Shown piece after piece: positions 9,391 to 30,764 of a DNA stretch of 64,000 bases (positions are counted from its first letter, which is position 1; each line of letters opens with the position of its first letter). This DNA comes from Methylocystis sp. L43 (GTDB lineage Bacteria; Pseudomonadota; Alphaproteobacteria; Rhizobiales; Beijerinckiaceae): NCBI RefSeq assembly GCF_015709525.1, contig NZ_JADNRA010000036.1, positions 310,001-374,000 on the forward strand. The letters are read 5' to 3'. The notes beneath the pieces were generated by a model. The model had not been told where the DNA came from, did not search any database, and saw nothing but the letters and a program-made list of their open reading frames with translations. A program made the translations under genes and the position numbers.

Positions 9391-10800
9391 ATGAAATCGT
9401 TCGGCGCGCTTACAGTCATAGCGGCAGGGGCAGGCCTCGCGTTGGCAAGCGCAAACGATGTCTCAGCCGAGACAATTTCGTCTGCGCTCGCTCGGGCTTA
9501 TGCGGGTAACCCGGACCTGAACGAGCAACGCGCCGACGTGCGCACGCGTGACGAAGACGTCTCGAGCGCCTGGTCCGGACTGCGTCCCAACGCCAATATT
9601 CAGGCGAGCGTCGGCGCCCAGCGCTCGAACCTCAGGATTCCTGTGCGACTGCCGGTGATCAATCAGCGCATCCCGCTTACTGATGAATATACGGGATTTC
9701 CGCGTGGGGCCACGCTAAACGTCTCGCAGAATGTCTTTGATGGCGGGCGCACCGAGAATTCGGTGCGTCGCGCCGAGTCGAGCGTGTTCGAGTCGCGCGC
9801 CCTGATGCGGCTTTCTGAGCAGGAAATATTGCGTAGCGGCGCAACCGCTTTCATGGACGTGATGCGCGACGCGGCGATCCTATCGCTGCGCAAGAGCAAC
9901 ATCGCCGTGCTCGATCTTCAGTTGCACGATACGCAGAAGCGCTATCAATCCGGTGACGTGACGAATACCGACGTGTCGCAGAGCGAAGCCTCCGTCTCCC
10001 ATGCGCGCTCAGAATATTTTGCCGCCGAGGCGCAATTGAAGAGCAGCGCCGCCGTTTACCGGCAGATCATCGGTGTAGAGCCCAAACGTCTCGAGCCGGC
10101 CTCATCGGTTGAGCGGATGTTGCCCAAGTCAGTGAAGGACGCGATTGACGTCGCGCTTGTCGAACATCCCGCCGTCGTCGCCGCCTTGCATCGGGTGGAC
10201 GCCGCGGCGTCGGCGGTGAATGTCGCCGAGGGTGCGCTTTTGCCCACGCTGTCGGTCAATGCGCAAGTATCCCAGCAGTATGACTCTTTCCTTGGACTGC
10301 CCGGCTCGCGGCAATTTTCGGCGGGCGTCAACGGCGCGCTCAATGTCCCCCTCTACCAGGGAGGAGGGGAGTATTCTTCGATCCGTAAGGCGAAAGAGGT
10401 GCTCGGCAAGGCGCGCCTCAACGCCGACGCACAGCGCGACCGCGTTCGTGCTAACGTGGTCTCGAGCTATGGTCTGCTGGACACGGCCAGATCGCAGATC
10501 AGATCGGATCAGGCGACGGTGAAGGCGGCCGAACTCGCTCTGAAAGGCGTTCGTGACGAGGCGCAGGTGGGGCAGCGCACGACGCTCGACGTGTTGAACG
10601 CTCAGCAGACTTTGCTCAACGCGCGCGCCAATCTGGTCATTTCCCAAAGGGACCGTGTCGTCGCCTCATACGCGGTTTTGGCCGCGATCGGCAGACTGAC
10701 GGCCGAGACGCTCAATCTCAATGTCGTGCGTTACGACCCTGTCGTTCATTTCGAGCAGGTTAAATACAAGTGGTACGGGACCGATACGCCTGATCGATGA
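9391..10800 (+). CDS. TolC-type outer-membrane efflux protein
   Basis: About 469 residues from the ATG at 9391 (MKSFGALTVIAAG), which begins a signal peptide ending near DVSAE; an upstream in-frame ATG at 9349 would bury it. The mature protein has the two-fold repeat of TolC family proteins: long helical stretches (SSALARAYAGNPDLNEQRAD; LALKGVRDEAQVGQRTTLDV) and barrel strands (GATLNVSQNVFDGG; GALNVPLYQGGGEYSSIRKA). It provides the outer-membrane channel for tripartite secretion. It is convergent with the lipid-polyketide locus that encodes an ABC transporter and a periplasmic adaptor but no outer-membrane component of its own, which suggests it completes that exporter, as HgdD/TolC does for DevBCA in cyanobacteria. 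Confidence 0.9.
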   Translation: MKSFGALTVIAAGAGLALASANDVSAETISSALARAYAGNPDLNEQRADVRTRDEDVSSAWSGLRPNANIQASVGAQRSNLRIPVRLPVINQRIPLTDEYTGFPRGATLNVSQNVFDGGRTENSVRRAESSVFESRALMRLSEQEILRSGATAFMDVMRDAAILSLRKSNIAVLDLQLHDTQKRYQSGDVTNTDVSQSEASVSHARSEYFAAEAQLKSSAAVYRQIIGVEPKRLEPASSVERMLPKSVKDAIDVALVEHPAVVAALHRVDAAASAVNVAEGALLPTLSVNAQVSQQYDSFLGLPGSRQFSAGVNGALNVPLYQGGGEYSSIRKAKEVLGKARLNADAQRDRVRANVVSSYGLLDTARSQIRSDQATVKAAELALKGVRDEAQVGQRTTLDVLNAQQTLLNARANLVISQRDRVVASYAVLAAIGRLTAETLNLNVVRYDPVVHFEQVKYKWYGTDTPDR

Positions 10801-10842
10801 ACGTGCGCGGCCCGGCGCCGCGGCCAAGGCAAATCCCTGAAC

Positions 10843-11496
10843 CTATAAGCGAGGTTTGACGCCCGACTGTTTTTCAGAGTCTTCGGCCGAGGCCTCGTTC
10901 TGCCGGACAACTTCGCTGTCCATCAAGCTCACGTTGAATCGCGTGGCGTCGGGCTCGTTGATCCAGACTTTCAAATCGTAGCTCGGACCGGATTGCCAGG
11001 ACCATCCCTGGCAGTCGCGCTCAGCTTTGGGCTTTGGATGATATTTCGAATATTTCTCGCCCACTTTGAATTCTTCGATGATGAAATCGAGAAGCTCCGG
11101 ACAGGTCATCTGTGAAAGGAACACGCCGTTCAGCTTGTAGACCTTGCCGGTCCGCGGGGTGAGCGCATAGTTGACGATGGAGCCATCTTCAAATCTGCAG
11201 GAGAACTGTTTCCCGTATTCAGATGACGATGCGAAGAACTCCTCGGCGCGCATGCCGCCATGAAACGAGACCTTTCCAAAGTTGTTGCACTGCGACCGCG
11301 CGAGTCTTGCCGCTTCATCCTTGGACATGCCGAGCGAAAAGCCCCGCAGATCGCGTTTGAGGGATTGAGCCTGGGCGTCCTGCACGCCAGAGAAGGTCAA
11401 AACAGACAGCAGAAGAAACATGAGTTGCGTCTGTCGTATGGAGCGGCTCGAGTTCAGATGGGTACCCTGATCGATAATCCGGCTCGAGAGTATCAT
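10843..11496 (-). CDS. Hypothetical exported protein
   Basis: 217 residues from the ATG at 11496, which is preceded by AAGGAGA at a good distance; a longer frame to 11571 lacks such a site. A hydrophobic stretch (TQLMFLLLSVLTFSGVQDAQAQ) near residues 23-45 acts as a signal peptide. The mature part contains four Cys and a segment LRGFSLGMSKDEAARLARSQ, reminiscent of small periplasmic proteins with a GMS/T.DE motif, then an acidic-rich end. Function unknown. Its 3' end faces that of tolC with only a 42-base gap holding a GC-rich hairpin (CGCGGC-CCGGC-GCCGCG) that could end both transcripts. Confidence 0.65.
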   Translation of the reverse strand: MILSSRIIDQGTHLNSSRSIRQTQLMFLLLSVLTFSGVQDAQAQSLKRDLRGFSLGMSKDEAARLARSQCNNFGKVSFHGGMRAEEFFASSSEYGKQFSCRFEDGSIVNYALTPRTGKVYKLNGVFLSQMTCPELLDFIIEEFKVGEKYSKYHPKPKAERDCQGWSWQSGPSYDLKVWINEPDATRFNVSLMDSEVVRQNEASAEDSEKQSGVKPRL

Positions 11497-11834
11497 TATC
11501 GATCTCCTTGCTGAAAGAAGCTGTCGATTCAAGGGAGACCAGGAAAAAGTTGGGTCAGTCAAGCGCCGCACCGAAAACGTAATCGCTGGGCCATCTCACA
11601 TTCATCTCGCTGGGGCAGACCGCCGTAGCGTTCGAGAGTTCCGTTGTTGCAATGACGCGCCTAGCCCGAGATCATCGCATCTGGCGCGTCTTGGCTCATA
11701 CGTTTATTTGTACAAGTTGATACTTGATCTGTAAACGCCGTTAATGGCCCACCTTCAAACGCATGATGCGCGGCGAGTCTGATCGGCTGATTTGGAGATA
11801 GGGCTTATGTCTTTAGCGGCTGCCCGGTCAGGAC
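11497..11834. repeat. Intergenic stretch with an IS66 left-end remnant (11733-11812)
   Basis: Bases 11733-11812 (GTAAACGCCGTTAATGGCCC onward to GGAGATAGGGCTTATGTCT) match the left end and tnpA start of the IS66 element at 36603-36683 base for base over most of their length. The tnpA-like start codon is followed by only a few codons before the sequence diverges, so this is a solo IS66 end, presumably left by decay. The rest of the 338 bases shows no gene. Confidence 0.7.
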
Positions 11835-12971
11835 TCAGTCGATACGCGGCATCGCCTCTTCGGGAACGCGCGTCGCGCGCGCGATCGCGCGCACGCCGCT
11901 CGGAAACTGCGAGGCGAGCCATATAAGAGCGTTCTGGCCAACCGAATGTCTGAAGAACATGCTGTTTAAGGGCTTTGAAACGCGCATTTGTTTTCTGACG
12001 ATACTACTGAAGCGGCGATGAAACTCATGCGAGGTCCCGCCTTCGAGAAACATGTTGGCCGCCAGAACTGCGCTGCAGCTCGCCATGCCCATGCCGTCGC
12101 CGGTGAAAGAAGGGATCACCGCAATCTGATCGCCAAGCCGCCATAGTCCCGGCGGGTCCTCGGGGGAGGAATTATGCACAAAGCCATAAGGCACACGGCT
12201 GATCGCAAGCGGGCGATCCAGCAAAGGCTCGGCGCCCTCCAAGTAAGCCGCTACGTAGTCCGACTCGCTGCTGAATTGCTGCAGAACGCCTTGCCAGGTT
12301 CCTCCCGCCTTCATGAAGCGGTCTTGGCTGAGCACAGGACAGAAATTGACGCAATCGTCTTCGACGAGCATTAGCCCGAGATAGCATTCCTTCAGGAGAA
12401 TGAGCTCGACCACCGATCGCAGATGCTCGGTTTTTTTCCTGTTGAATCGGTAATACATTTTCAACGCGAGATAGTCGCTTTGGCGCCCAGGCGCAGCGCG
12501 CTTGACGCCACGCAAATCGTGCTTGCCACTCGCAAGAAAAATCGAGCGAGCCGGCGTACTGTCTCCAGGGCCGAAACTCACCTCGAACCCGCCGTCATCC
12601 GATTGCTCGATGAACCGCGCCGCTTTGCCGCGAATGACGTTCACGCCGCAAGACGTTGCATGCTCGAGCAGAGCCTCGTCGAGGACTTTTCTTGATAGCG
12701 CCAGAGCCGGAAAAGGCAGCGGCTGGTCCACGCTGCGATTCCCTCGAACCAATCGGACACGGTTGATCGGTCGAGCGCCCAGATCCACCGGGTCTACGCC
12801 AAGAGATCGCAAATTTGCGCTGACTTCACGACTCATGAACTCGCCGCAAATCTTATGATTCGCCGACGACGAGCGCTCATATAGGTCGACGCGCCGACCC
12901 GCGCGGGATAAAGCAAGGGCCGCCGTAGCTCCCGCGACGCCGCCGCCGATGATCACGCTTGCTTCCGTCAC
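11835..12971 (-). CDS. FAD-dependent oxidoreductase of the geranylgeranyl-reductase/hydroxylase group
   Basis: 378 residues from a GTG at 12971 preceded by GAGGAG; earlier in-frame codons overlap the previous gene. The N-terminus has the dinucleotide-binding fold ASVIIGGGVAGATAALALSR with a following acidic residue (DLYERSS), and a second FAD motif lies near residue 275-290 (WRLGDQIAVIPSFTGDGMGM). This is the pattern of PHBH-type monooxygenases and geranylgeranyl reductases. Such enzymes are regularly found with a small methyltransferase and a type III PKS, as in Streptomyces srsABC, where the flavoprotein hydroxylates alkylresorcinol to a hydroquinone/quinone. A similar hydroxylation of the aromatic head here is inference. 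Confidence 0.82.
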   Translation of the reverse strand: MTEASVIIGGGVAGATAALALSRAGRRVDLYERSSSANHKICGEFMSREVSANLRSLGVDPVDLGARPINRVRLVRGNRSVDQPLPFPALALSRKVLDEALLEHATSCGVNVIRGKAARFIEQSDDGGFEVSFGPGDSTPARSIFLASGKHDLRGVKRAAPGRQSDYLALKMYYRFNRKKTEHLRSVVELILLKECYLGLMLVEDDCVNFCPVLSQDRFMKAGGTWQGVLQQFSSESDYVAAYLEGAEPLLDRPLAISRVPYGFVHNSSPEDPPGLWRLGDQIAVIPSFTGDGMGMASCSAVLAANMFLEGGTSHEFHRRFSSIVRKQMRVSKPLNSMFFRHSVGQNALIWLASQFPSGVRAIARATRVPEEAMPRID

Positions 12972-13114
12972 GATACGACTCCTCATCCACCTCTTCGCGA
13001 AGCACTTCCGGAGCGACTGGTTTGTCCTTTGGGGGCTCCTCCCGTCTGTTGAAGCGATTGTTGCGTCGATTGGCCCAGGCCAGCCGCTCGCGAGAGCGAC
13101 AGCGCACGGACGGC

Positions 13115-13849
13115 TTACGGAGAGTGGACCGGAGGCGTGTCGCCGCGAGCGGAATTCGACTGCCGCGCCGCGAAGCAGTGCGTGAATGGCCTTGCGGGGC
13201 TCTCGTCGAGAACCCAATCGTTCTGATTTGGCCACAGCTTCGATAGATCACGGTTGTTGAAGCCGGCGCGCACGCTCGTCTTCGCATCCCATTGCGTGAT
13301 GTCGTTGCAGCCGATGACCCAGACCAGGCTGCTCGCCATGAGCGAAAAGCGATCGCGACGAGGTTCGCACGCCGCGAACAGCGTCGTGCGCGCCGCCGCC
13401 AATTCGAGCAAGCGAGCGAGGTCCGGGTTTTCAAAATGATGCAGAAACAGATTGGCCGAGATGATGTCCGTCGTCGCGGCGTCATGCGAGAGGTAATCGA
13501 AGACGTCTGCGACGACGCTCTCCACCTGCCATCCGATCGCTTCAAAGCCTTGGCGCGTCTCGTCCGATAGAATGTCCTGCTGGTCGAGCAGGCGCGCCGT
13601 AACGCCTTGCCACTTCGGCGCCAGGCGGTTTGCGACGCCGAGCATCAATGCCCCGTCGCCGGAGCCGAGATCGAGAATGGTTTTCGGCGTCCCGTCGAAA
13701 TGCTGGGACAGCAGCGTCGCCATAATCTTGGTCTGCTGCATCCAGCTGTTAACGCGCCGCAGGTCGCGGCGCGATTGCATGGCACGGGGATCGTCGCATG
13801 GAAGAGAATCCAAGAGTTCGGGATATACTGCGCGAGCGAGCTTAGCCAT
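13115..13849 (-). CDS. Class I SAM-dependent methyltransferase (type III PKS-associated)
   Basis: 244 residues from the ATG at 13849, with AAGGAGA upstream at a good distance. Motif I is ILDLGSGDGALMLGVANRL, motif II carries the acidic residue in ARLLDQQDIL, and motif IV is ISANLFLHHFENPD. Cytosolic methyltransferases of this type frequently adjoin a type III PKS and an FAD oxidoreductase, where they methylate a ring hydroxyl or ring carbon of alkylresorcinols. Gap to the FAD gene is 143 bases, to the exporter gene 208 bases, all on the same strand. The acceptor is inferred. Confidence 0.8.
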   Translation of the reverse strand: MAKLARAVYPELLDSLPCDDPRAMQSRRDLRRVNSWMQQTKIMATLLSQHFDGTPKTILDLGSGDGALMLGVANRLAPKWQGVTARLLDQQDILSDETRQGFEAIGWQVESVVADVFDYLSHDAATTDIISANLFLHHFENPDLARLLELAAARTTLFAACEPRRDRFSLMASSLVWVIGCNDITQWDAKTSVRAGFNNRDLSKLWPNQNDWVLDESPARPFTHCFAARQSNSARGDTPPVHSP

Positions 13850-14057
13850 TTTGGCGCTCTCCTTCTGATAGCCCCTATGATAATTCCGGCGCCTACCTCT
13901 AGATGAGCGAGTTTGAAAACGAACGGCAGCCTTAGCCGCAGTCATCGCAATTCGTGATCTCCGCCTGCGCTAACACAGACGTGGCGGCACATGCGCTTCG
14001 GCCTGGGGCGTCACCTCGAACTAACCAGTCAATTCGCGCGATTTCCCTCGCGCTCCG

Positions 14058-15179
14058 TCAGTCGCGCGCTATGGTTAATCGCCCTGCGTATTTTTCCGCC
14101 TTCATTGGTTGCAGCCAGCCTGTCTGAGCCGAGACCGGGGGGCTCAAAAAATAGGCGTCAACGCGCAACCCCACGGGCAATTTCACGCCGGTGTCGAGAT
14201 CGATGAGCACCTGCAGCGCCTTGGCGTCGACGCGATCGGTCGGGCGACCTGTCTGAACCACCTTGGAGCCCATCCGCGACGATACGCGAAAAACTCTTCC
14301 GCCGAACTTCTGATTTGGGAACGCGTCCGCAGTGACCTCGACGCGCTGCCCGGCGACGATTTTCCCGACGTCCGTCTCATCGACGTCCGCACGCACGCGC
14401 AGATCGCGAACATTGCCGACGATGGCTATCGGCGTCGGCGGCACGTGCGTCACAGCTTCGCCGGCGACGCGAGAGCGACGCAGGATCGTGCCCGCGATCG
14501 GCGACCGCACCAGCGTCTTTTCCAAAAGCGCTTCCGACAGCGCCACATCCGCCTCCGCGAGCCGCACCCGCGCGCGCGCCGCCGCGAGATCTTCGGCGCG
14601 CGGCGGAGCCTCGAGCATCGCGAGCCTTTCCGCGATCGCCGCGCGCCGCGCCTTGTTGACGTTCCAGTGGGATGTGGCCTGATCAAGCGCCGCTTGGGGC
14701 GAAACGCCGCTCTTGGTGAGCGGCAGCCGTCGCTCATGTTCGCGTCGCGCCAAATCGAGCGCCGCATCCGCCTCCATAAGAGCGTCCCTTGCCTCTCGGC
14801 GCTCCTCTGCGCGCGCGCCATTGGTGAGGCGCTCAAGTTCGGCCTGCCGCAGCGCAAGGGCGGCGCGCGCGGACTCCAGTCGAGCAACCTGCTCGGTATT
14901 ATCGAGCGCCGCGATGATCTGGCCGGCGGCCACCTCATCGTTCTCCTCGACACGCATCTCGCGGATGACGCCTGTCGCTTGCGCGGCGATTTCTCGCTCC
15001 TCGCCTTCAGGCTCCACCATTCCCGGCGCTGCGGCGACATGCTGCGCAAGACCGGTGAGCGAAGTTGTGGCGCGAGCGGTTGACTGCGTGCTCTCGACCG
15101 ACTGAAAGAGAAAGAGGCTCAGCGCGGCCAGGCAGAGAAAAGTCAGAATTGCGACGACGCGTGACGACATCTTCATCAC
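14058..15179 (-). CDS. DevB-like periplasmic adaptor (membrane fusion protein)
   Basis: 373 residues with one N-terminal transmembrane helix (VVAILTFLCLAALSLFLFQS), a lipoyl/barrel-sandwich half motif (GVIREMRVEENDEVAAGQII), a long alpha-helical hairpin rich in Ala, Glu and Arg (residues about 95-230), the second lipoyl half (LVRSPIAGTILRRSRVAGEA) and a beta-barrel region (VRADVDETDVGKIVAGQRVE). This is the HlyD/DevB adaptor architecture. The start overlaps the ATPase stop by ATGA, so DevC-DevA-DevB are translationally coupled. It would bridge the inner-membrane ABC transporter to the TolC channel encoded at 9391. Confidence 0.88.
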   Translation of the reverse strand: MMKMSSRVVAILTFLCLAALSLFLFQSVESTQSTARATTSLTGLAQHVAAAPGMVEPEGEEREIAAQATGVIREMRVEENDEVAAGQIIAALDNTEQVARLESARAALALRQAELERLTNGARAEERREARDALMEADAALDLARREHERRLPLTKSGVSPQAALDQATSHWNVNKARRAAIAERLAMLEAPPRAEDLAAARARVRLAEADVALSEALLEKTLVRSPIAGTILRRSRVAGEAVTHVPPTPIAIVGNVRDLRVRADVDETDVGKIVAGQRVEVTADAFPNQKFGGRVFRVSSRMGSKVVQTGRPTDRVDAKALQVLIDLDTGVKLPVGLRVDAYFLSPPVSAQTGWLQPMKAEKYAGRLTIARD

Positions 15180-15904
15180 AAGGCTCCCATTGCATGTTGG
15201 GGAGATAAATCGCGCGGCGCGGCCAGACGCTCGGCGATTTGTCCATCTTCCAGATGTATCACCCGATCCCCGAAATGAAGGATGCGCGGATCATGGGTGA
15301 CGATGACCACCGCTCGCTCCTGCTGATGCGCAAGAATCTGCAAAAGCTCAATGGCGCGAAGCCCGCTTTCTGCGTCCAGCGCGGCCGTCGGTTCGTCGGC
15401 CATGAGGATCTTGGGATCGCCGGCCAGAGCGCGCGCGATCGCAACGCGCTGTCTCTGGCCGCTACTCAATTGAGATGGAAAGGCATCGAGTCGGTGACCT
15501 AAGCCCACCGATTTCAGGAGTTCGCGCGCGCGATTCCGAGCGATCTGCCGGGACACTCCGAGAAGATCGAGCATCACCATCACGTTTTCCGTGGCGGTCA
15601 GCACGGGGAACAGATTGTAGGCCTGAAAAATGAAGCCAAAGTATTTCAGCCGCAGCGCTGCGAGCTCCTCTTCGCCGAGCGCCTGCGTGTTCTTTCCATA
15701 AAGCGTCACGACTCCGCTCGAAGGGCTGAGCAGCCGACCCAGAATATGGAGCAGCGTCGTCTTGCCGCTGCCCGACGGTCCCACAAGCATCAGCAACTCG
15801 CCAGCGTAAACCTCAACGTCGATGTCCCGCAGCACGGTGACCGGCGTCGGTCCGGTGTCGAAGGAATGACTGACGCCAGAGGCGCTGATGACGGCGCGTT
15901 TCAT
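15176..15904 (-). CDS. DevA-like ABC transporter ATPase
   Basis: 242 residues with all ABC motifs: Walker A GPSGSGKTT near residue 42, the signature LSSGQRQRVAIARAL, Walker B ILMADEPTAALD and the switch His in IVTHDPRI. It belongs to the MacB/LolD/DevA branch that works with FtsX-type permeases. It overlaps both the permease stop and the adaptor start by four bases, so the three subunits form one tightly coupled unit. Confidence 0.93.
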   Translation of the reverse strand: MKRAVISASGVSHSFDTGPTPVTVLRDIDVEVYAGELLMLVGPSGSGKTTLLHILGRLLSPSSGVVTLYGKNTQALGEEELAALRLKYFGFIFQAYNLFPVLTATENVMVMLDLLGVSRQIARNRARELLKSVGLGHRLDAFPSQLSSGQRQRVAIARALAGDPKILMADEPTAALDAESGLRAIELLQILAHQQERAVVIVTHDPRILHFGDRVIHLEDGQIAERLAAPRDLSPQHAMGAL

Positions 15905-17109
15905 CTGAACACCTTCACTGGATCAATTGATGTGATCTTGCTGATCGACACCAGCGAGGCGCCGACGCACATCACCACGGTGACGGCCCCGATGCCTAGA
16001 GCAAGCCAGGCTGGGACAAGCGGCGGCGAACTCATGTTCCGGCCGAGATACACAAGCACCAGCACGGCGGCGATCCCGACCGCGCTTCCGATCACGCCGC
16101 CGATCACCGCCTGTTCAATGACGATCTTGTAGAGATACCACCGCGGCCCGCCCATAGCTCGAATGACTGCGTATTCGGGAAGACGATCCATGGTGCTGGC
16201 ATAGAGCGTCTGTGCGACGATCACGACGCCAACAAAAAGCGCGAGCAGCGAAGAGCAGATGATCGAAATGCCCGCGCCCGTGGTCAGAAGCCAGTATTTC
16301 TGGCTACTAGAGGCAAATTCGCGGGAGGTCATAACGTCGACGTCTGGCATGCGGGCGGACAGTCTCTCGATCACCGCGGCCGGATCCTGACCGGCCACAA
16401 CGCGGATCAACACGTAAGTGATGACATCGTCTGATCGACCCAGCAGCCATCGCGCGTTACGTAGCGAGGTGAAGACATAGGGCGATTGCGTGAATGTTCT
16501 TATCCCGTCCGTAAAGCCGACGACCCGCGCCCGGCGATCATTAATTTCAACGAGTTGATTGAGGCCGGTGACGCCAAGCTTTTCGGCGTAGAGTCGATCG
16601 ATGATAATCCCGTCGGGGCTGGATAGCGCCTCTCGGAAGCTTTGCCCGGCGGGCAAAGTCAGCGGCAACCCCATCTCGGCGCCCGGTTCAACGCCAATGA
16701 GGATGACAATCTGCCGTATCCCGTCGGCGCGCTTCCAAAAGCCGAAATGCAGCAGATAGGGCTCGGCGGCGGCGACGCCTTCAACGGCGACCGACTGAAA
16801 TCGCCGTCTGCCATCGATCGGCGTCGCAAGATCGACGCTCGGAACGCCATGCGCCGCGACCCAAATATTCGCACCCGCCCGATCGACGACCGTCGAGGTC
16901 GTCTGCAGAAAGTTCAGGAGCATGCCAAGCTGGATGCCGACCAGTATCGTCGAGAACGCTATGCCAACGAGCGTTACGCCGAAGCGGATTCTATCATGAA
17001 CAAGATTCCGCCAGGCGATGAGAAGCGTGAGACTCGGACCCCTCCATGCAACGCCGCTATAGCCGGCGAATTGTCTCGTGGCGCGGCCAATCTCTTTTCC
17101 TAATGACAT
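15901..17109 (-). CDS. DevC-like ABC transporter permease
   Basis: 402 residues. An N-terminal hydrophobic helix (FGVTLVGIAFSTILVGIQLG) is followed by a large extracytoplasmic MacB-like domain (residues about 70-250) and three C-terminal helices (e.g. ISIICSSLLALFVGVVIVAQ), the FtsX/DevC topology. The periplasmic region carries a segment like the DevC family (AAEPYLLHFGFWKRADG, then ILIGVEPGAEMG). In Anabaena DevBCA exports heterocyst glycolipids made by an Hgl PKS, which makes the same pairing here meaningful. Coupled to the ATPase by ATGA. Confidence 0.88.
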   Translation of the reverse strand: MSLGKEIGRATRQFAGYSGVAWRGPSLTLLIAWRNLVHDRIRFGVTLVGIAFSTILVGIQLGMLLNFLQTTSTVVDRAGANIWVAAHGVPSVDLATPIDGRRRFQSVAVEGVAAAEPYLLHFGFWKRADGIRQIVILIGVEPGAEMGLPLTLPAGQSFREALSSPDGIIIDRLYAEKLGVTGLNQLVEINDRRARVVGFTDGIRTFTQSPYVFTSLRNARWLLGRSDDVITYVLIRVVAGQDPAAVIERLSARMPDVDVMTSREFASSSQKYWLLTTGAGISIICSSLLALFVGVVIVAQTLYASTMDRLPEYAVIRAMGGPRWYLYKIVIEQAVIGGVIGSAVGIAAVLVLVYLGRNMSSPPLVPAWLALGIGAVTVVMCVGASLVSISKITSIDPVKVFR

Positions 17110-20124: not shown

Positions 20125-20162
20125 GATCCCCTCCTCGGCGAATGCCGCCAAATGGTTTCCGA

Positions 20163-22043: not shown

Positions 22044-23248
22044 ATCTTTTCTGCCACCAAGCCGGTGATCGTCAAACCCGGTCCAAAGGCGAGAGAGACG
22101 ATGCGGACCCCCGCAGGAATCGAGGGCTCCTCCAAAATTTCCTTCAAGATGTGGGGGACTGTCGCCGAGGACATGTTGCCGTTCTCGGTAAACACCGAAT
22201 TGCTGATCGCCACCTGATCCGGCTGAAGCCCAAGCGCCTCCTGAATATGTTCGACGATCTTCGGGCCGCCAGGATGAATGGCGAAAATCAGCCTGTGCTT
22301 GTCATGCTCGAAATCGACGCCGACGCGTTGCAGCAACTGCTCGACGAATGGGCGAACCGATTGCTTGATGACGACGGGCACCATGACGGAGAGCGTCATG
22401 TGGAAGCGCGTTGAGCCAGGGACCCAGGTCATGTCGTCGGCCGAGTTCGGCAGCAGATGCTCGTTGAAGGCGAGGATCCTCAAGCCGCGAAGCCCTCGTT
22501 CCCGCAGGTAATCTTCCGTCACCATCGAATATTTTATGAAGCCGTCGGCAAACAGCGTCATCGTGATGATGTTCTCGGCCTTGAGCTCTTCGATGCCGCG
22601 GTGAACGGAGAGCACCTCGGTGTGCACGATGTCGACGCGATCCTTGGGCTTGGTCATGGCGAATTGCGACGACGAGAGAAAGCCGTGCGCCATCTTGATC
22701 GCCGGAAACGCGCCGTAGCAGCCCATGTGGTAACTGTGCGTGACAGTCGTGTTGAACCATTCCTTGCCGGCCACCATCCGCTCCACGGGACTGGGCGCCA
22801 GATAGCCGGAGCAGGTCACATGGATGAGATCGTCCGGCGCCTCTTCGGCGTCGCCGTACATCTCCTTGAGGCAGCCGTCGGCGACTTTCGCGTAGCTCGA
22901 ATGGCGCGTCTTGATGTCCTTCGCCTGCAGGTTCTCATAGTTGTCGAACAGCTGCAGATAGTCATGCTCGGGCTCGGCGACCGTGAACTCGCCATTGCTG
23001 AAGCTGATGTCGCTGAGACGCGGAAAGAACACCAATTGGCGCCGCTTGATCACTGAGGGAGACAGAGCGAACTTTTCAAACTTTTGCCGCGTTTCGTGAA
23101 TGATCGTTCCAAAGCTCTCCGCATCGGTGATTCCGTGACTGCGGCAATAGGACTTGGCGAATCCATAGGCTGAAAGTTCGAGAGTTAAAGCCTGCGGCAC
23201 AGGCTCGATCATGCGGACGGGAACAAAGTCGGTCAGGCAGAATGACAT
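22040..23248 (-). CDS. Type III polyketide synthase (alkylresorcinol/alkylpyrone synthase-like)
   Basis: 402 residues of the chalcone-synthase/KAS III fold. The catalytic triad is visible: Cys177 in HSYHMGCYGAFPAIKMA, His325 in FAIHPGGPKIVEHI, and Asn358 in TENGNMSSATV. The block VTCSGYLAPSPVERMV is also typical. Bacterial enzymes of this kind take a long acyl chain and extend it with two or three malonyl units to alkylpyrones or alkylresorcinols. Its place between the type I PKS and the dehydratase-PPTase, with four-base overlap to the latter, suggests direct transfer from the PKS, as in the Azotobacter ArsA/D-ArsB/C system. Ring type (resorcinol or pyrone) cannot be told from sequence alone. 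Confidence 0.88.
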   Translation of the reverse strand: MSFCLTDFVPVRMIEPVPQALTLELSAYGFAKSYCRSHGITDAESFGTIIHETRQKFEKFALSPSVIKRRQLVFFPRLSDISFSNGEFTVAEPEHDYLQLFDNYENLQAKDIKTRHSSYAKVADGCLKEMYGDAEEAPDDLIHVTCSGYLAPSPVERMVAGKEWFNTTVTHSYHMGCYGAFPAIKMAHGFLSSSQFAMTKPKDRVDIVHTEVLSVHRGIEELKAENIITMTLFADGFIKYSMVTEDYLRERGLRGLRILAFNEHLLPNSADDMTWVPGSTRFHMTLSVMVPVVIKQSVRPFVEQLLQRVGVDFEHDKHRLIFAIHPGGPKIVEHIQEALGLQPDQVAISNSVFTENGNMSSATVPHILKEILEEPSIPAGVRIVSLAFGPGLTITGLVAEKI

Positions 23249-23306
23249 CGCCCACTCCTTAATATTTTCGACTCAAGGTCGTTCGCTCGAATTGAGCGAA
23301 CGCCCG

Positions 23307-26300
23307 CTATTGATGCTGCCGCATGCCCTGTCGGGCGATCTGTTCGAGACTGGCGGCGACGACGATTTCTGGCGCGCCGGTGTTCCCGCGCTCAAGCTCT
23401 TCAAGGCAGCGCCGCATTCCTTGATCGACGGCGATCGGATAGATCTGCTTGGAGGCGTAGAGCTTGCGCAGATCGTCGTTCACCATGCCGCCGTCCCACG
23501 GTCCCCAATTGATTGCGACGGCGTGAACATGCGGCCATTTGTGGCTGAGGCCATCGGCTAGCTTGTTGACGACCTCGTTCGCCGCGCTGTAGTCGCTCTG
23601 GCCGGCGTTGCCGAACCGACCCGCGATCGACGAGAAGAACACCAGAAATTTGAGAGTCTCGGGCCGTAATTTTTCCGATAGCACGATGGCCGGGACGACC
23701 TTCGTCTCGAACACCGTGTCGAAGGAGTCGGGCGACTTCTCTCTCATCATCCTGTCGTCGATGACGCCGGCGCCATGCAGCACGCCGTCAATGCGGCCAT
23801 AGCGATCGTAGATTGAATCGATCAGACGCCCGAAGGCGTCGCCGTCGCGTATGTCGAGTGCGTGGTATTCGACCTGCGCCCCCGCCGAACGCATCGCCGC
23901 GATGTTGTCGCGGATCTGACGGTCTTTGAGGATACGTTTGATCGCACTTTCGATTTCCGCGGGTTTGATCTTTTCGCCGCGCGCCCGCGCTTCGCCGATG
24001 AGGAACTGCCGCAACTCGGCGCGATCGTTCAGTCCTCGTGTCGCGTCGGGCTCTTCGCCAGGCATTGGGCTGCGTCCGACGAGGATGAGCCGGGAGCGGA
24101 ATTTTTCAGCCATCGCGCGCGTGACGTCCGCGGTGATCCCGTAAGCGCCGCCGGTGACGAGCAGCACGCCGTCGTGCTCCAAGCTCAGGCCCGACAAATC
24201 GGCTGTCGGAACGCGCTCCTCCGCGAGTTCGAGCTGAAAGCGTCCGCTCTGGGTGAAACCCACTTCCACCGTCGGATCGTCGTCGTAAAATTCCATCAAA
24301 GATTCGTCGACCAGCCGCTTCACGTCGATATCGGGATCGGCGTCGATGCATTTGACTCGCAACTCCGGCCATTCCCGCGCCGCTGACTTGGCGACGCCGA
24401 GCGTGCCGGCGGGAGCCGCGGCGAACGGGCGCGCCCGGCGAAGACCAAATTGTCCATCGAAATCGGTCAGATTGAAAAGGACGCCGCCGCCGCACTTGCC
24501 GCTTTCCCTCAAATCCTTTTCGAAGGCCTTGAGGAGCAGAAACAATTGCCGCGCGTGGTCCAGACGGGCGTCATGCGCGACGCCGGCGATCGACTGCAAG
24601 CCGGACAAATTGAAAATCGCGCCTACCTTGGCGCCCTCGTCGGCGAGCATCTCGCGAAGTGCGGTCACCGCGTCAAGCGAAGACAAATTGGCTTCGATGC
24701 GCTCACTATCGACGAGGCGAGTTTCGCCGCCGGGCGTGACCCGCCAGACCTTATGGCCGTTAGCCCTCAGAGCGTCGCTGAAAGCGACGCTCAACTCCCC
24801 CGCGCCGCCGACCACGAGGATCAGGCGGTCTGCGGGAAAATCCTTAACTTGCCTTGAAGCATCCCGCGGCGCGGCCACAGGGGTGACCGCAAAACGCTGC
24901 ACATCCGCGGAACTTGCCTTCGGGGCGTCAGACTCCGCTGTCTCAGGCAAGGAGAGCGACAGCGGAGTCTGAGATTTTTTTCTTGGATCGGAGCCTCCCG
25001 GCTCGGCCTGAGACTTCCGCAATTGATCGTACCAATCGACGATCCCATTTAACGTCTTGAGGCCCGACAGCTCCTCGAAGACCTTTTCTTCGTCCTGGTC
25101 CTCCATGAAGGAGTGATTGTCCTTGAGCTTGCTCAAGATCTCGATCCGCTTGATGGAGTCGATGCCGAGATCCGCCTCCATATGCGCGTCGAGATCGAGC
25201 ATGTCTTCGGTGTAGCCCGTGCGCTCGACGACCGCCTGCAACAGATCGGCCTTGAATGCCTCGGTCGATGCAAGCTGCTTTGGGCCCTTCTGGTCCGTCG
25301 TCTTTGCAGCGCCAACGCCATTCGCCGCCGGTTTCGTGGCGACGACCGGAGGCGCGCTCGCGGGGCGCGGCGCCGGCTGCGGAGCCTTGCCGTTCTGCGT
25401 GACCGCAAGCTTCGGCAGCACAGGGGCCGGCGGAACGAAGACGCCGGCCGTCGTCGGAGCCGCCGTCGGCTGTTCGGCGAGCAGAAACGGGATCGGCTCT
25501 GCGCCAAACCCGGTTCGTTCAGCGGCGCCATTGCCGTTGGCGCCGAGCAGCTGTCCCTGGAACTCGAAGAAACGACGCAACACGTCCTGCTGTTCGCGCT
25601 GTAGATCGATGAGTTGCGCCAAACTGTTCTGCACTTGGGCGAACCGCGATTCAGCGCCTAACGCGCTGACCGCGCCAAGCGCTGGCGATGGTACGTGAGT
25701 AGACAAGGCTTTGCTCCTCTCGCGTTCGACGCCGAATAATGGCGCCGATGGTGGATGGGCTGCTACGTTCCCATTGGGTCTGGTTTGGAGGGGCGCCGCG
25801 GGCGCTTTCACAGGCGCCGGTTGCGCGGCGCCGCCGGCGGCGCGCTTTGGCGGCTTTGCTTCGGCGCGCCAGGGCTCGGCGCGCCCGCCATTCACCCGCC
25901 AAGCCATTGGCCCTGGATTGGCCTTGGCGCGAGCCTGTTCGAAGACTTGCGCGAGGCCCATTTCCGCAAGTCCGCGGCGCGCAAACCATGGCGCGAGATC
26001 GACCGGAAGGCCGAGCGCAAACGCCCGCGCGAGCAGCTGCGCGAGTTGCAGCCAGCCCGAACGCTCCGGCGCGTCGATTGACAGCGTCGTGTGCGGCCGG
26101 TCGCCGAGAATGCGGCCGACGAGCCCGCTCAGCACCTGCCCCGGACCCGCCTCGATGAAGACTCTTGCCCCGGCCGCGTAGAGGCGTTCGATCTCATCGA
26201 CGAAGCGCAAGGGCTCAACGATGTGGCGCGCCAACAGCGCGCGGATTTCAGAAGGCTCCTCGGGATAGCGGTCGCTCGTCGTGTTGCTGAACACTTTGAT

Positions 26301-29300
26301 CTTCGGCGGTCGGAACGTCACCGAGCCGAACTCCGCGGCGAGCGCCGCTTGCGCGCCCGCCATCGCGTTGCAGTGGAACGCCGCCGTCACTGGCAGCCGC
26401 TTGACGCGCACGTCCTCCCCGCTGAGGGCCTTCACCGCAGCATCGATCGCGGCGATTGGCCCTGCGATGATCGTCTGGTCAGGCGCGTTCAAATTCGCGA
26501 CGCTCACCGCCAGTTCGAGACGCGCGATCGCCTCTAGCGTCCATGCCTCGTTGGCGTTGACCGCAGCCATCGTCGCCGGCTGCGCGACGGATATCTCCTT
26601 GGAGATACGGCCGCGCGCATCGGAGATACGGATAAGATCGTCGCGCGACAGAACCCCGGCGACGCAGAGCGCGACATATTCGCCGTAGCTGTGGCCGGCG
26701 ACGAAGTTGGGCTTCACGCCGAAGGCCGACAGCGCGTCATAGGCCGCGAGGCCCGCCAATCCGAGCGCCGGCTGCGCGATGCGCGTGTCGTTCAATGCCG
26801 CTTGCTGGCGCTCCCGCTCCTCCTTGCCGAAGACAGGCACGGGATAGACATATTGCGACAGCGGCTTCGGCAGCGCGCCCTTGAGCATCGCGTCGGCTTT
26901 TTCGAACAAGGCGTAAGCGGACGGACGCGCGAGGACAAGATCGCGAAGCATGTTGATCTGCTGCGATCCCTGGCCCGGGAATAGGAAGCAGACGGCGCCG
27001 CTGTCGGCGCGATGTTGCAGGTTCCGATAGTAGATCCCGCTCGGCGCGCTGAGCGTCGCCTTCCCTTGATGGCTGCGCAGGAAGAATTCCAGCTTGCCCT
27101 TCAGGTCGGCGACCGAGTTCGCCACGATGGCGAGCTGCACGATCTGACCGCCGTTCTTCGGCCGCAGCCTGGCGTCGTCAAGGGACGTCGAGTAAGCGAG
27201 CTGTGCGAGATCGAGCTCCTGAGTCTGCTCGACGCCTTGCAGCAGAGTCCGCGCCGCGTCTTCAACCGCCTCGACGCTCGAACGGCTGAAGGCGAAGATC
27301 TCGGCCGCGCGCGGGTTCAGATCCTGCGCGTCGGACGCCCGGAAGTCGCCGCGATATTCTTCGAGCACGGTATGAAAGTTAGTGCCGCCAAACCCGAAGG
27401 CGCTGACGCCGCAACGGCGCGGCGCGCTGTCGCCAGCGCCGAGCCAGGGGCGAATTTCGGTGTTGATGTAGAAAGGCGATTTGGCGAAATCGACGCCTGA
27501 CACCGGTTTTTCGACGCCGATGGTCGGCGGCAGCACGCGGTGCTTGAGCGCGAGGCTCGCCTTGATGAGCGCCGCGAGTCCCGCCGCCACTTTTGTGTGG
27601 CCGATCATCGACTTCACCGAGCCGACGGCGCATCGCTGCGGCGTTCCCGACGCGGGACCGAAGACCATGTTCAGCGCGCCGATCTCGGATTTGTCGCCGA
27701 CCGCCGTGCCGGTGCCGTGCGCCTCGATCATCGTCACGCTCGATGGATCGACGCCCGCGTCGGCATAGGCGCGCTCCAGCGCCAGGACCTGGCCTTCGGG
27801 GTGCGGCGCCGTCAGGCTGCGATTGTGGCCGTCGCTTGAACTGCCGATGCCCTTGATGACCGAGTAGATTCTGTCGCCGTCGCGTTCGGCGTCGGCGAGC
27901 CTCTTCAACACTACGGCGCAGACGCCTTCGCCGATGGCGATCCCGTCAGCGCCGTCATCAAAGGGGCGGCAACGGCCGCGCGGCGACAGCGCGTGCGTTT
28001 GCGCGAACGACATGAAGCTGACGGGACCGTTGGTGCCGTCCACCGCGCCGACAAGCGCGATGTCGGCGTCGCCGCTGCGCAATTGCTTGATGCCGACGTC
28101 GAGCGCGGCGAGAGAGGAGGCGCAGGCCGCGTCGACGGTGAAGTTGGCGCCGCGCAGATCGAGCCGATTGGCGACGCGCCCGGCGACGACATTGCCGAGG
28201 AAGCCTGGAAACGAATCTTCCGTCCACTTCGGCAACTCGTCCTGATAAAGCGAGTCCAGGATGCGCTTGCGCGTCTCGTCGGAGACGCCTTCCGCTTTGG
28301 GAAGATAGTGCGCGAGCAGCGTTCGGAAGATGTAGATCGTTCCGAGATCATTCATGCCGCCCGAGGCGAAAATCGTCGCCGTGCGCTCCCGCGAGAACGG
28401 CCGCCGATCCAGGCCGGCGTCTTCCAGCGCCATGCTCGACACGAGCAGCGCGAGAAGCTGCACAGGCTCGATCGAGCGTAGACTGGCGGGCGGAATCCCG
28501 TAGCGCGTCGGCTCAAAGACGACATCATCGAGGAAGCCGCCCCACTTCGAATAGACCTTGTCCTTCACGCCGCGCTTTGGGTCGTAGAAGTCGGACGCGC
28601 GCCAGCGATCCTCGGTCACTTCGCGAACTGAATCGACCGCCAGCATGATGTTGCGCCAGTAGCTGCGCACATCCTTCGCGCCCGGCAATAGACACGCCAT
28701 GCCGACCACGGCGATTTCCTCGCGCGGTTCTCGCCTTTCGGGGCTGGAGCGTTTGTCCGCCCGGGCGAACGCCGCTTGAGCGCCGGAGGAGACGGCCTGA
28801 TGCAGTTCCGCCATGCTCAGCCGCGAGTCGCGCAAGCGCGCGACTTCGCCCATCATATACATGCCTTCACGGCGCTGAGCGTCGGCGTCGAGACTGATGT
28901 ATTTCTCGTTGTTTTCCTTCGCCGCCGGATTCTCGTTGCGCGTCATGCCCTTTGACGCGATGCGCAGCCGCCCGATATTGAGCAGCTCGAGCGCCATGAG
29001 AATTTCTTCTTCCGACTTGCCCTGCAAGATCAGATCGCTTCGGGCCTTGTCGAACTCCGTGCAGAAACTGGTGTTGGCGCAACGCGTGAACGAGCCGACT
29101 CCCGATTGCAGCAGGGCGGTCTCGCGGCAATCGATTGCTTGATCCTGGAATTCCTTGACGATGGCGCCGGTCCGCACCGCCTCTTCGGTGAAGAGATAGG
29201 CGGTGCCCATCAGCACGCCGACTTTCATTCCCTTCGCGGCGAGCGGCGCCGCCAGCACCGACACGATCGCGGCCGAAAGGCCGTCATGAACGCCGCCGGC

Positions 29301-30764
29301 GAAGAGGATCTGCATCGTCTCGGGATCATCGATCTTCGCGCCAAGCAGCGTGTCGATGGCCGACTCCCAGAGCACGAAGCTGGTGCGCGGACCGGTATGG
29401 CCGCCGCATTCGCTTCCCTCGAAGATGAATTTGCGCGCGCCCTCCTTGATGAAACCCTGCAGGAGACCGGGCGATGGCACATGCAGATAGGTGGAAACGC
29501 CGAGCGCCTCAAGTTCCTTGGCCTGGCTTGGCCTGCCCCCGGCGACGATCGCGAATGGCGGCTTGACCTCGCGAATGGCCTCCATCTGCTCCTGCCGCAA
29601 ATCAAGCGGCATGAAGCCCAGGATGCCGACGCCCCAGGGTCGCGCGCCCATCAGCTCTTTGGTCTTCGCGAGCAGCGAACGCACTTCTGGGCCGCGCATG
29701 ACCGCAAGCGCCAGGAACGGCAGGCCTCCCGCGCGTGCAACCGCATCGGCGAAGGGCGCGACGTCGCTGACCCGCGTCATCGGACCCTGCGCAATCGGAA
29801 AACGCGCGCCATGCAGCTTTGCGAGCGCCGAGTCCGGCCGGAGTAGATTTTGCGCGCGGGCTTCGCTCAGGGCGGGTTCGACGCCATCGCGCAGCGCCGT
29901 GATCACTCGGCCCGTCGTGCCGTAGCGACGTCCGAGCGACGCCGCGAACGCGATGTCTTGTCCGAGCGGAATGAGCGCATCGTCGCGATCGGCCAGCAAC
30001 CGCCGCAACGGATCTCGCAAGTCGTCGCCTTTTGCGACGGCGACTTCAATTTCGCGGAGCTTGCCTCGACCATGTCGTCCTGAAAAACGGAACAGGTCAG
30101 CGCCTCGTCCTGCGACAATCGTTTCGCTGCCGTCGAACTGGCTCCAGAGCCTTCTTTGGTCCGCCGATGCGCTCGGCCCCTCTTCCGTGAGCCAAAGCTG
30201 CTCGACGAGAACCACCCCGCGCGCGCCGGAAAGCACGGCGGCCGCCGCGCTGCGCATTTGGACGCCGCCCTGTATCCAGTAGGGAACCTGCAGTTTCCCG
30301 CTCAGTTCCTGCAAAAGGATGAACGAGGTGGCGGAGCCGATCCATCCGCCCGCCTCATGGCCTTTCACGATGAGTCCGTCGAACCCTTCCGCTTCCGCGA
30401 ACAGCGCCGAGTCGAGATCATGGACTTCCAGAATGACCCTTTGCGCCAACTCTTTCGCAGACTTGAGTAAATCCGCCGCCTCTCGCGCCTTGACGCCTGC
30501 AAGAACAAGCAGCGGAAGTCCGGTTTGCGCGAGTTTCGACAGATCGTCGAAACTACGGTGCGGGCTTGTGACCGCGTCCCATCTGACGCCCCAGGTTCCG
30601 CGCGCGCCCGCCGACTTCCGCAGCACATCGATCGCATTGATGACCGCGGCGCCGTCGGCGCTCCAACCCAAATCAAGAACGCCTGTCTCGCCCGCCTTGC
30701 AGGCTGCAATGGCGATTTGCGGGTCGAGGCAATGGCTCGGAGTGATCGCGATCACCGTTTCCAT
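23307..30764 (-). CDS. Iterative type I PKS of the Pfa/Hgl kind: NPD-NPD-KS-AT-ACP-KR
   Basis: 2485 residues from the ATG at 30764, preceded by GAGGAGA. Two tandem nitronate-monooxygenase/PfaD-like TIM barrels come first (about 1-225, with GHEAGGWIGSATSF; and about 315-610, with SECGGHTGPRTSFVLWE, the FMN-site block of PfaD enoyl reductases). Then a ketosynthase (685-1130; active Cys in DAACASS near 881, EAHGTGT, VKSMIGHTKVAAG), an acyltransferase (1255-1590; GHSYGEY Ser near 1359, AFHC), a Pro/Ala linker with a short helical segment, a single ACP (about 1835-1915; DLGIDSIKR Ser near 1870) and a ketoreductase (about 2195-2430; TGGAYGITADVTRA, FFSSIAGRFGNAGQ, YSAAN). No dehydratase is present; it is supplied by the gene at 20163. 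The probable product is a long, fully or partly reduced acyl chain. Confidence 0.93.
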   Translation of the reverse strand: METVIAITPSHCLDPQIAIAACKAGETGVLDLGWSADGAAVINAIDVLRKSAGARGTWGVRWDAVTSPHRSFDDLSKLAQTGLPLLVLAGVKAREAADLLKSAKELAQRVILEVHDLDSALFAEAEGFDGLIVKGHEAGGWIGSATSFILLQELSGKLQVPYWIQGGVQMRSAAAAVLSGARGVVLVEQLWLTEEGPSASADQRRLWSQFDGSETIVAGRGADLFRFSGRHGRGKLREIEVAVAKGDDLRDPLRRLLADRDDALIPLGQDIAFAASLGRRYGTTGRVITALRDGVEPALSEARAQNLLRPDSALAKLHGARFPIAQGPMTRVSDVAPFADAVARAGGLPFLALAVMRGPEVRSLLAKTKELMGARPWGVGILGFMPLDLRQEQMEAIREVKPPFAIVAGGRPSQAKELEALGVSTYLHVPSPGLLQGFIKEGARKFIFEGSECGGHTGPRTSFVLWESAIDTLLGAKIDDPETMQILFAGGVHDGLSAAIVSVLAAPLAAKGMKVGVLMGTAYLFTEEAVRTGAIVKEFQDQAIDCRETALLQSGVGSFTRCANTSFCTEFDKARSDLILQGKSEEEILMALELLNIGRLRIASKGMTRNENPAAKENNEKYISLDADAQRREGMYMMGEVARLRDSRLSMAELHQAVSSGAQAAFARADKRSSPERREPREEIAVVGMACLLPGAKDVRSYWRNIMLAVDSVREVTEDRWRASDFYDPKRGVKDKVYSKWGGFLDDVVFEPTRYGIPPASLRSIEPVQLLALLVSSMALEDAGLDRRPFSRERTATIFASGGMNDLGTIYIFRTLLAHYLPKAEGVSDETRKRILDSLYQDELPKWTEDSFPGFLGNVVAGRVANRLDLRGANFTVDAACASSLAALDVGIKQLRSGDADIALVGAVDGTNGPVSFMSFAQTHALSPRGRCRPFDDGADGIAIGEGVCAVVLKRLADAERDGDRIYSVIKGIGSSSDGHNRSLTAPHPEGQVLALERAYADAGVDPSSVTMIEAHGTGTAVGDKSEIGALNMVFGPASGTPQRCAVGSVKSMIGHTKVAAGLAALIKASLALKHRVLPPTIGVEKPVSGVDFAKSPFYINTEIRPWLGAGDSAPRRCGVSAFGFGGTNFHTVLEEYRGDFRASDAQDLNPRAAEIFAFSRSSVEAVEDAARTLLQGVEQTQELDLAQLAYSTSLDDARLRPKNGGQIVQLAIVANSVADLKGKLEFFLRSHQGKATLSAPSGIYYRNLQHRADSGAVCFLFPGQGSQQINMLRDLVLARPSAYALFEKADAMLKGALPKPLSQYVYPVPVFGKEERERQQAALNDTRIAQPALGLAGLAAYDALSAFGVKPNFVAGHSYGEYVALCVAGVLSRDDLIRISDARGRISKEISVAQPATMAAVNANEAWTLEAIARLELAVSVANLNAPDQTIIAGPIAAIDAAVKALSGEDVRVKRLPVTAAFHCNAMAGAQAALAAEFGSVTFRPPKIKVFSNTTSDRYPEEPSEIRALLARHIVEPLRFVDEIERLYAAGARVFIEAGPGQVLSGLVGRILGDRPHTTLSIDAPERSGWLQLAQLLARAFALGLPVDLAPWFARRGLAEMGLAQVFEQARAKANPGPMAWRVNGGRAEPWRAEAKPPKRAAGGAAQPAPVKAPAAPLQTRPNGNVAAHPPSAPLFGVERERSKALSTHVPSPALGAVSALGAESRFAQVQNSLAQLIDLQREQQDVLRRFFEFQGQLLGANGNGAAERTGFGAEPIPFLLAEQPTAAPTTAGVFVPPAPVLPKLAVTQNGKAPQPAPRPASAPPVVATKPAANGVGAAKTTDQKGPKQLASTEAFKADLLQAVVERTGYTEDMLDLDAHMEADLGIDSIKRIEILSKLKDNHSFMEDQDEEKVFEELSGLKTLNGIVDWYDQLRKSQAEPGGSDPRKKSQTPLSLSLPETAESDAPKASSADVQRFAVTPVAAPRDASRQVKDFPADRLILVVGGAGELSVAFSDALRANGHKVWRVTPGGETRLVDSERIEANLSSLDAVTALREMLADEGAKVGAIFNLSGLQSIAGVAHDARLDHARQLFLLLKAFEKDLRESGKCGGGVLFNLTDFDGQFGLRRARPFAAAPAGTLGVAKSAAREWPELRVKCIDADPDIDVKRLVDESLMEFYDDDPTVEVGFTQSGRFQLELAEERVPTADLSGLSLEHDGVLLVTGGAYGITADVTRAMAEKFRSRLILVGRSPMPGEEPDATRGLNDRAELRQFLIGEARARGEKIKPAEIESAIKRILKDRQIRDNIAAMRSAGAQVEYHALDIRDGDAFGRLIDSIYDRYGRIDGVLHGAGVIDDRMMREKSPDSFDTVFETKVVPAIVLSEKLRPETLKFLVFFSSIAGRFGNAGQSDYSAANEVVNKLADGLSHKWPHVHAVAINWGPWDGGMVNDDLRKLYASKQIYPIAVDQGMRRCLEELERGNTGAPEIVVAASLEQIARQGMRQHQ

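Follow-up and report, generated by a model that had tools for sequence, protein, structure and literature searches.

Which lipid does a methanotroph make, and how does that lipid leave the cell, when a large type I polyketide synthase (PKS), a type III PKS, tailoring enzymes and a transporter are encoded side by side? The locus that raises this question lies in a stretch of 64,000 nucleotides (the window, meaning the whole stretch analysed) from the 4.06 Mb genome of Methylocystis sp. L43. Its initial annotation had proposed an exported, glycosylated phenolic lipid made with a Pfa/Hgl-type synthase. Open reading frames and Pfam matches, searched across the window, read as a single series on the minus strand from 31817 to 11835, listed here with the two genes that follow it:

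30906-31817, minus strand: conserved gene without a Pfam match, first in the string and ahead of the PKS; 91-92% identity in genomes G006, G018 and G005, 38% in G020
23307-30785, minus strand: type I PKS/FAS, ArsA homologue, with NMO-type ER, KS, AT, one ACP (GIDSIKR) and KR by Pfam
22040-23248, minus strand: type III PKS, ArsB-like, with Trp275 and the motifs GCYG, IHPGG and NGNMSS (3vs8/3vs9 alignment, 22-sequence alignment and tree)
20163-22043, minus strand: dehydratase fused to a 4'-phosphopantetheinyl transferase (DH-PPTase), ArsD homologue, with PS-DH and ACPS domains
19321-20151, minus strand: FkbM-type methyltransferase (PF05050)
18042-19256, minus strand: family-2/21 glycosyltransferase by Pfam; top NCBIfam match HpnI, 102.7 bits against a cut-off of 310
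17321-17854, minus strand: conserved 177-residue protein without a Pfam match; 80-95% identity in the window's own clade, 38% in G020
15901-17109, minus strand: DevC-like FtsX/MacB permease (PF02687/PF12704; TIGR01185)
15176-15904, minus strand: DevA-like ABC ATPase (Pfam; TIGR02982)
14058-15179, minus strand: DevB-like HlyD membrane-fusion protein (adaptor) by Pfam; top NCBIfam match PRK03598, DevB second
13115-13945, minus strand: methyltransferase by Pfam, with relatives that adjoin some other type III PKSs
11835-13235, minus strand: FAD enzyme (Pfam/NCBIfam); top NCBIfam match a geranylgeranyl-reductase-like group, below cut-off
10843-11571, minus strand: protein without a Pfam match, accessory to the window's clade; 92-96% identity in G005, G006, G016 and G018
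9349-10800, plus strand: TolC-family outer membrane channel, convergent to the string; TIGR01844 at 291.3 bits, above its cut-off of 225.15

All functions named in the initial annotation are present as open frames that match Pfam, and its central observation, that genes for synthesis and export lie together, stands: they form one string whose core order is conserved in relatives. The gene list needed some correction, in that the dehydratase also carries a phosphopantetheinyl transferase, two more conserved genes (30906-31817 and 17321-17854) accompany the rest, and the glycosyltransferase and FkbM genes lie inside the string. Neighbours are spaced from -121 to +263 bases, so a single transcript is plausible. 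Overlaps of 4 bases join the type III PKS gene to the DH-PPTase gene, the permease to the ATPase gene, and the ATPase to the adaptor gene; the remaining spacings are 11-263 bases, apart from one ORF overlap of 121 bases. This last involves the FAD enzyme ORF, which has a GTG start and whose FAD motif starts near residue 94; its true start is probably internal. The same probably holds for 30906-31817, where the frame opens at MEAINAV in G018 and G005. Copies of the 17321-17854 protein in G006, G018 and G005 end 2-3 codons short of the window C-terminus. A search of the window for sigma-54 sites gave 56 weak matches against a shuffled mean of 64.5, which is no excess.

The label Hgl-type did not survive comparison. 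The window PKS is 54% identical to ArsA of Azotobacter vinelandii over the full length and 55-56% identical to the other three Azotobacter copies (the alignment with one of these covers only 70% of its length), while the DH-PPTase is 47% identical to A. vinelandii ArsD, with the same gene order. The A. vinelandii reference is genome G849, whose ArsC aligns with PDB 3vs8 over 401 residues with zero differences seen. Shulse and Allen describe the protein make-up of HglC as KS-CLF-AT, and place the A. vinelandii and Beijerinckia indica clusters in one class, Type P (PMC3098273). The KS-CLF-AT make-up is absent from the window synthase, which is a single ER-KS-AT-ACP-KR protein with a separate DH-PPTase. 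The top-scoring PKS of the plasmid collection was that of B. indica plasmid pBIND02. From full-length homology to ArsA, homology to ArsD, ArsB and ArsC, the Type P class and the pBIND02 match, we classify the window synthase as an Ars (Type P) system and exclude an Hgl-type synthase. The kinship with Azotobacter that had been drawn earlier is therefore one of homology, not just analogy.

Its score against the PfaA model TIGR02813 is 1101.9 bits, above the cut-off of 1010.1. In a KS-AT tree, with an outgroup of our own choice and with G016 left out for having too little PKS, the window PKS falls inside a nine-row alphaproteobacterial group (SH-aLRT 99), with Azotobacter and Methylocystis genomes G025 and G037 beside it. 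In a search of 398 genomes of one family, type III PKS was found in 11 at 1e-10, of which four, from the single genus Azotobacter, have two tandem Ars-type copies. A PKS of Azospirillum argentinense, considered as a possible relative, proved to be a different large PKS.

To our knowledge, the Hgl pathway has no type III PKS. The type I PKS might nevertheless make a long-chain polyol glycoside resembling heterocyst glycolipids, with the type III PKS acting separately, as a Dev-like exporter and a glycosyltransferase beside a PfaA-related synthase could suggest, together with the unlinked type III PKS of G025 and G037. We regard this as very improbable: the synthase is a full-length ArsA homologue, the genes for type III PKS and DH-PPTase share 4 bases here, and of the 16 PKS-bearing loci compared, 14 have a linked type III PKS.

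What the type III PKS of an Ars-type system would make of the acyl chain can be read, provisionally, from one residue. The window enzyme is 98-99% identical to those of Methylocystis rosea SV97, Methylocystis sp. H62 and two MAGs, 74% to a Beijerinckia mobilis copy, and 64% and 62% to A. vinelandii ArsB and ArsC (64-68% and 60-62% across the Azotobacter ArsB and ArsC copies). Against PDB it matches 3vs8 at an E-value of 1e-165, the next different PDB protein following at 2e-21. Its Cys-His-Asn motifs are intact, and it falls in the ArsB/ArsC clade. The ArsB substitution W281G is reported to turn resorcinol into pyrone formation, while ArsC G284W, the subject of structure 3vs9, moves the opposite way (PMC6274091). 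At this position the PDB alignment has Trp in the window enzyme (residue 275), Gly in 3vs8 and Trp in 3vs9. Among 22 aligned copies, 17 have Trp, including those of the window, G020, Methylosinus sp. C49 and all four Azotobacter ArsB proteins; Gly is found in the four ArsC proteins of Azotobacter, and Leu, within an altered loop, in one copy from B. mobilis. Trp at the switch thus predicts that the window enzyme favours resorcinol over pyrone. An aromatic or pyrone head had been suggested; the switch residue predicts the first rather than the second.

The same residue bears on whether the product might be mainly an alkylpyrone, a quinone or another redox lipid, formed through the FAD enzyme and the methyltransferase, rather than a structural coat lipid. 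In favour, both tailoring genes belong to the string and are similar to genes found next to some generic type III PKSs. Against it stand the Trp at the switch position and the lack of both genes in the compared loci outside the window's clade, where the synthase core and an exporter remain, so we think a redox lipid quite unlikely.

In the type III PKS tree the window's clade is single-copy, and the enzymes of G025 and G037 branch with Azotobacter (97/97); duplication seems to have happened separately to give the Azotobacter pair and the Beijerinckia pairs. Between the two full copies on the B. indica plasmid lies a fragment resembling type III PKS (L057, 17517-17762; 53% over 83 residues), perhaps a remnant.

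The core gene order of the window repeats in related Methylocystis, in G020, in Beijerinckia mobilis, on pBIND02 of B. indica and on plasmid pMSC49a of Methylosinus sp. C49. G006 has the full string, and Methylocystis rosea also carries the locus (L002). Twenty control stretches of 20 kb gave no match to the window's FtsX queries (0/20); we chose these elsewhere in genomes with generic type III PKSs or related DevC genes, and they include no Ars carriers. From this recurrence and the empty controls, the grouping is more than chance for its core. The initial interpretation was right in direction. The loci of B. indica pBIND02 and B. mobilis share PKS, type III PKS, DH-PPTase, a glycosyltransferase and the DevC-A-B order with the window, at 55-77% identity, but have two type III PKSs, two ACPs and a GT4 glycosyltransferase, with no methyltransferase, FAD enzyme or FkbM relative and no TolC in the stretches examined. 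Two copies being plasmid-borne (pBIND02 and pMSC49a) points to horizontal movement.

Within the genus, nine of 39 genomes have a type III PKS of Ars type, and these same nine have the DH-PPTase; a Dev-like permease (at least 68% identity) is present in seven of the 39, all within those nine. The remaining two, G025 and G037, have the type III PKS unlinked from the type I PKS and lack the Dev-like exporter; another ATPase-FtsX pair lies beside the synthase and DH-PPTase. These are loci L085/L086 (G037) and L087/L088 (G025), in which Ars-type PKS and DH-PPTase genes without type III PKS adjoin a divergent ABC-FtsX pair; the G037 locus also encodes a patatin-like protein and a 610-residue protein. 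No further type III PKS turned up at 1e-30 among 398 sampled genomes of the phylum and 397 of the order; as known carriers were not drawn, this indicates rarity, not absence. On pMSC49a, an 11-kb type I PKS gene and one for an AMP-binding protein (L058, 27620-38665) lie near the Ars-type locus, just behind TolC. A link to nitrogen fixation, with the lipid as an oxygen barrier as in heterocysts, was considered and rejected: nifH scored above cut-off in 25 of 34 genomes searched, 11 of 14 Ars carriers and 14 of 20 others, which does not discriminate (G016 and G025 have nifH fragments in broken assemblies).

The pump had been described as a DevBCA-TolC exporter. All four parts, permease, ATPase, adaptor and TolC-type channel, are at the locus, with TolC above its cut-off, but curated cut-offs exclude true DevBCA membership for all three Dev-like proteins: the permease reaches 137.7 bits of 290.35 against TIGR01185, the ATPase 245 of 295.8 against TIGR02982, and the adaptor 101.3 of 129 against TIGR02971. 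DevC and DevA are nonetheless the top NCBIfam matches of permease and ATPase. As a positive control, Chroococcidiopsis DevC scored 509.5 bits against the DevC model. The Anabaena system with hgl is alike in combining an FtsX/MacB-type exporter, an adaptor and a TolC-type channel with a PKS-made long-chain lipid; it differs in that its channel HgdD is encoded away from devBCA (PMC8277102), whereas the window TolC adjoins the locus. TolC genes also lie next to the loci of G020 (59%) and pMSC49a (57%).

Dev-like permease, ATPase and adaptor genes lie downstream of the synthase block in all nine assessable alphaproteobacterial loci (window, G005, G006, G016, G018, G020, B. mobilis G041, pBIND02 and pMSC49a). 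This count leaves out G028, where the contig ends inside the locus, and the second copy G005b, which is without PKS and probably an assembly duplicate. The prospect that exporter and PKS might prove unlinked in relatives is partly borne out in G025 and G037; linkage is kept in nine of nine assessable loci. In a DevC tree, made by a quick method and with long branches, the DevC proteins of Ars loci are not one resolved group, and close kinship is seen within the window's clade only. Different FtsX-type ABC genes stand beside the synthase in all four Azotobacter genomes and in both G025 and G037. As the genomes inside each group are close relatives, independent associations of exporter and synthase number about three by lineage, not 15.

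The window queries gave no FtsX match in Azotobacter, and the permease there was located by reading ORFs. A block after arsD, named from G849 and conserved in all four genomes, encodes an ATPase nearest LolD, an FtsX permease nearest LolCE (both below cut-off), a LolA-like protein, a putative outer-membrane barrel (our own reading, with no Pfam match), a GT4 glycosyltransferase and an acyltransferase. It occupies L077 9397-16682, with equivalents in L079, L081 and L083, and is a candidate set for transport and glycosylation of cyst lipids. In a proteomic study of an A. vinelandii algU mutant under encystment, a table of selected AlgU-dependent proteins includes the ABC ATPase Avin_29510 with ArsC (29530), ArsB (29550) and ArsA (29560), each at a fold change of 0 in the mutant; the accessible part of the paper discusses the Ars proteins and not the ATPase (PMC10651043). 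Going by locus tag, Avin_29510 should be the gene adjoining arsD, and is probably the ATPase seen in G849. No report of an Ars exporter was found among the matches listed in our literature search, which covered titles and the starts of abstracts and few subscription papers.

These data have to be set against the view that an Ars-type phenolic lipid stays in membranes and that the adjoining Dev-like transporter, with an unrelated substrate, pumps drugs or responds to lipid stress. Paralogues of DevBCA in Anabaena are described as having several roles, drug resistance among them (PMC8277102), the window exporter falls below the DevA, DevB and DevC cut-offs, and A. vinelandii resorcinols are reported in the membrane as well as in the outer cyst layer (PMC4824345). 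Chance proximity fits poorly, however, with nine of nine loci, two on plasmids, with a different FtsX-type transporter in the synthase neighbourhood of other lineages, or with an ATPase, an Ars neighbour by its tag, that depends on AlgU alongside ArsA, ArsB and ArsC; we consider an unrelated pump unlikely.

Conversely, a Dev-like exporter does not accompany every type III PKS: a DevC-type permease lies near four of 27 generic type III PKS loci (L089, L090, L093 and L100), with weaker FtsX matches in two more (L099 and L114). The 27 comprise most generic matches of one genome search and three of seven from the 398-genome family search, several of the stretches ending at contig ends; L091 and L092, with a DevC type present and no type III PKS match, are outside them. 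L089 (G007), L090 (G033), L093 (G034) and L100 (G054) form a second pairing of type III PKS with a Dev-like exporter, having a type III PKS 25-31% identical to the window's shortly before another DevC-type permease and ATPase; in G007 an ORF read as an FAD enzyme lies between the two. The top DevC match of the plasmid collection outside Ars loci (44%) is on a plasmid of Nitratidesulfovibrio vulgaris DP4 (L059, 18055-20973), where a DevC-A-B set is flanked by a sigma-54 regulator and a nif cluster and the annotation of the stretch shows no PKS. An Azospirillum DevC relative was set aside, its neighbours not being annotated as lipid genes.

The sugar and tailoring genes are the variable part. 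A GT4 glycosyltransferase (53-63% pairwise between genera) occurs in the Ars loci of all four Azotobacter genomes, B. indica, B. mobilis and pMSC49a; the window's clade has the FkbM and family-2 genes in place of the GT4 of the two Beijerinckia loci, and neither type of glycosyltransferase was found in the stretches examined of G020, G025 and G037. GT4 genes in Ars loci and the family-2 gene in the window's clade make glycosylation of the product likely. Resorcinol galactosides are known from A. vinelandii in the older literature. Methyltransferase, FAD enzyme, FkbM enzyme and this glycosyltransferase are found, among the loci compared, only in the window's Methylocystis clade, and the methyltransferase and FAD genes are separated from the type III PKS gene by seven genes. 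The idea that all eight functions form a conserved unit is therefore not supported; the methyltransferase, the FAD enzyme, this glycosyltransferase and a TolC beside the locus are each confined to certain lineages.

The srsABC genes of Streptomyces griseus, to which the tailoring genes had been likened, include a methyltransferase; we know of no type I PKS partner and no exporter for them. They pair a type III PKS with a stand-alone hydroxylase and make alkylresorcinols (PMC8086630); the possible counterparts in the window, the methyltransferase and FAD genes, are accessory to one clade. The arsABCD system of A. vinelandii is closer: its type I PKS/FAS, type III PKS and DH-PPTase are homologues arranged as in the window, and both loci have FtsX-type transporter and glycosyltransferase genes nearby. 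Azotobacter differs in having two type III PKSs (a resorcinol former and a pyrone former) where the window has one, a LolD/LolCE/LolA-like set in place of the DevBCA-TolC-like genes, and a GT4 in place of the family-2 glycosyltransferase, with no relative of the methyltransferase or FAD enzyme in the stretch examined.

Taken as a whole, this is probably a phenolic-lipid locus of Ars type (Type P) that includes a dedicated exporter, making an exported, probably glycosylated alkylresorcinol for the envelope or a lipid-cyst layer; the cyst or envelope lipid suggested at the outset remains the likely product. Starting from observed gene content, homology to A. vinelandii Ars, catalytic motifs and conserved linkage, we infer a product, an order of tailoring, a transport substrate and a cyst role as follows. 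The DH-PPTase would arm the ACP of the type I PKS, and PKS and dehydratase would build a long saturated acyl chain on it. The type III PKS would take this chain, add three malonyl units and close the ring by aldol condensation to a 5-alkylresorcinol. Methyltransferase and FAD enzyme may then modify the ring, the family-2 glycosyltransferase add a sugar, and the FkbM enzyme methylate that sugar. Together with TolC, the DevC/A/B-like pump would take the lipid out of the inner membrane and deliver it to the outer membrane or surface; there it might build up a resistant coat, most probably the lipid-cyst layer of Methylocystis.

One Methylocystis strain is reported to form lipid cysts (PMC12566213), and so are type II methanotrophs, which desiccation-rewetting decimated despite their cysts (PMC4700171). 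With only nine of 39 genomes of the genus carrying it, the synthase cannot be required for every lipid cyst. Shulse and Allen note that B. indica is not known to form cysts or to produce phenolic lipids (PMC3098273). We also offer a broader reading, tentatively and with a little less than even confidence: Ars-type synthases may travel with a dedicated FtsX-type ABC lipid transporter that has been replaced from lineage to lineage: Methylocystis, Methylosinus and Beijerinckia would have a DevBCA-TolC-like one, Azotobacter one of LolDE/LolA-like type, and G025 and G037 a third pair. The Avin_29510 system and the window pump would then be the missing route of cyst phenolic lipids to the coat, and methanotroph lipid cysts would be coated with a glycosylated alkylresorcinol homologous to the exine lipid of Azotobacter.

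Our literature search, with few subscription papers covered, found no paper in which Methylocystis and alkylresorcinol appear together. A survey from 2025 of gene clusters in methanotrophs has type III polyketide and phenolic-lipid classes among its counts and, in the portion available, no description of the locus (PMC11964084). New here are the placement in the Ars family, the prediction of a resorcinol, the finding that lineages differ in their exporter, and the connection with published AlgU data. The locus supplies named genes for two questions, how phenolic cyst lipids cross the envelope and what methanotroph lipid cysts are composed of, and the Azotobacter neighbour set from Avin_29510 onward is a tractable model for the transport idea. 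Methanotroph resting forms bear on the drought survival of methane-consuming soils, in which respect type II organisms are reported to have fared badly (PMC4700171).

Two neighbourhoods of the locus may be worth recording. An AraC-family regulator gene (6480-7460) lies between tolC and a TonB-dependent receptor gene (3408-5849). Genes for acetate kinase, phosphotransacetylase, a CoA transferase and two DUF3141 proteins lie near the locus at 37813-43549 and 52097-54562; acetoacetyl-CoA is the reported co-inducer of arsABCD via ArpR in A. vinelandii, so these neighbouring genes may be of interest.
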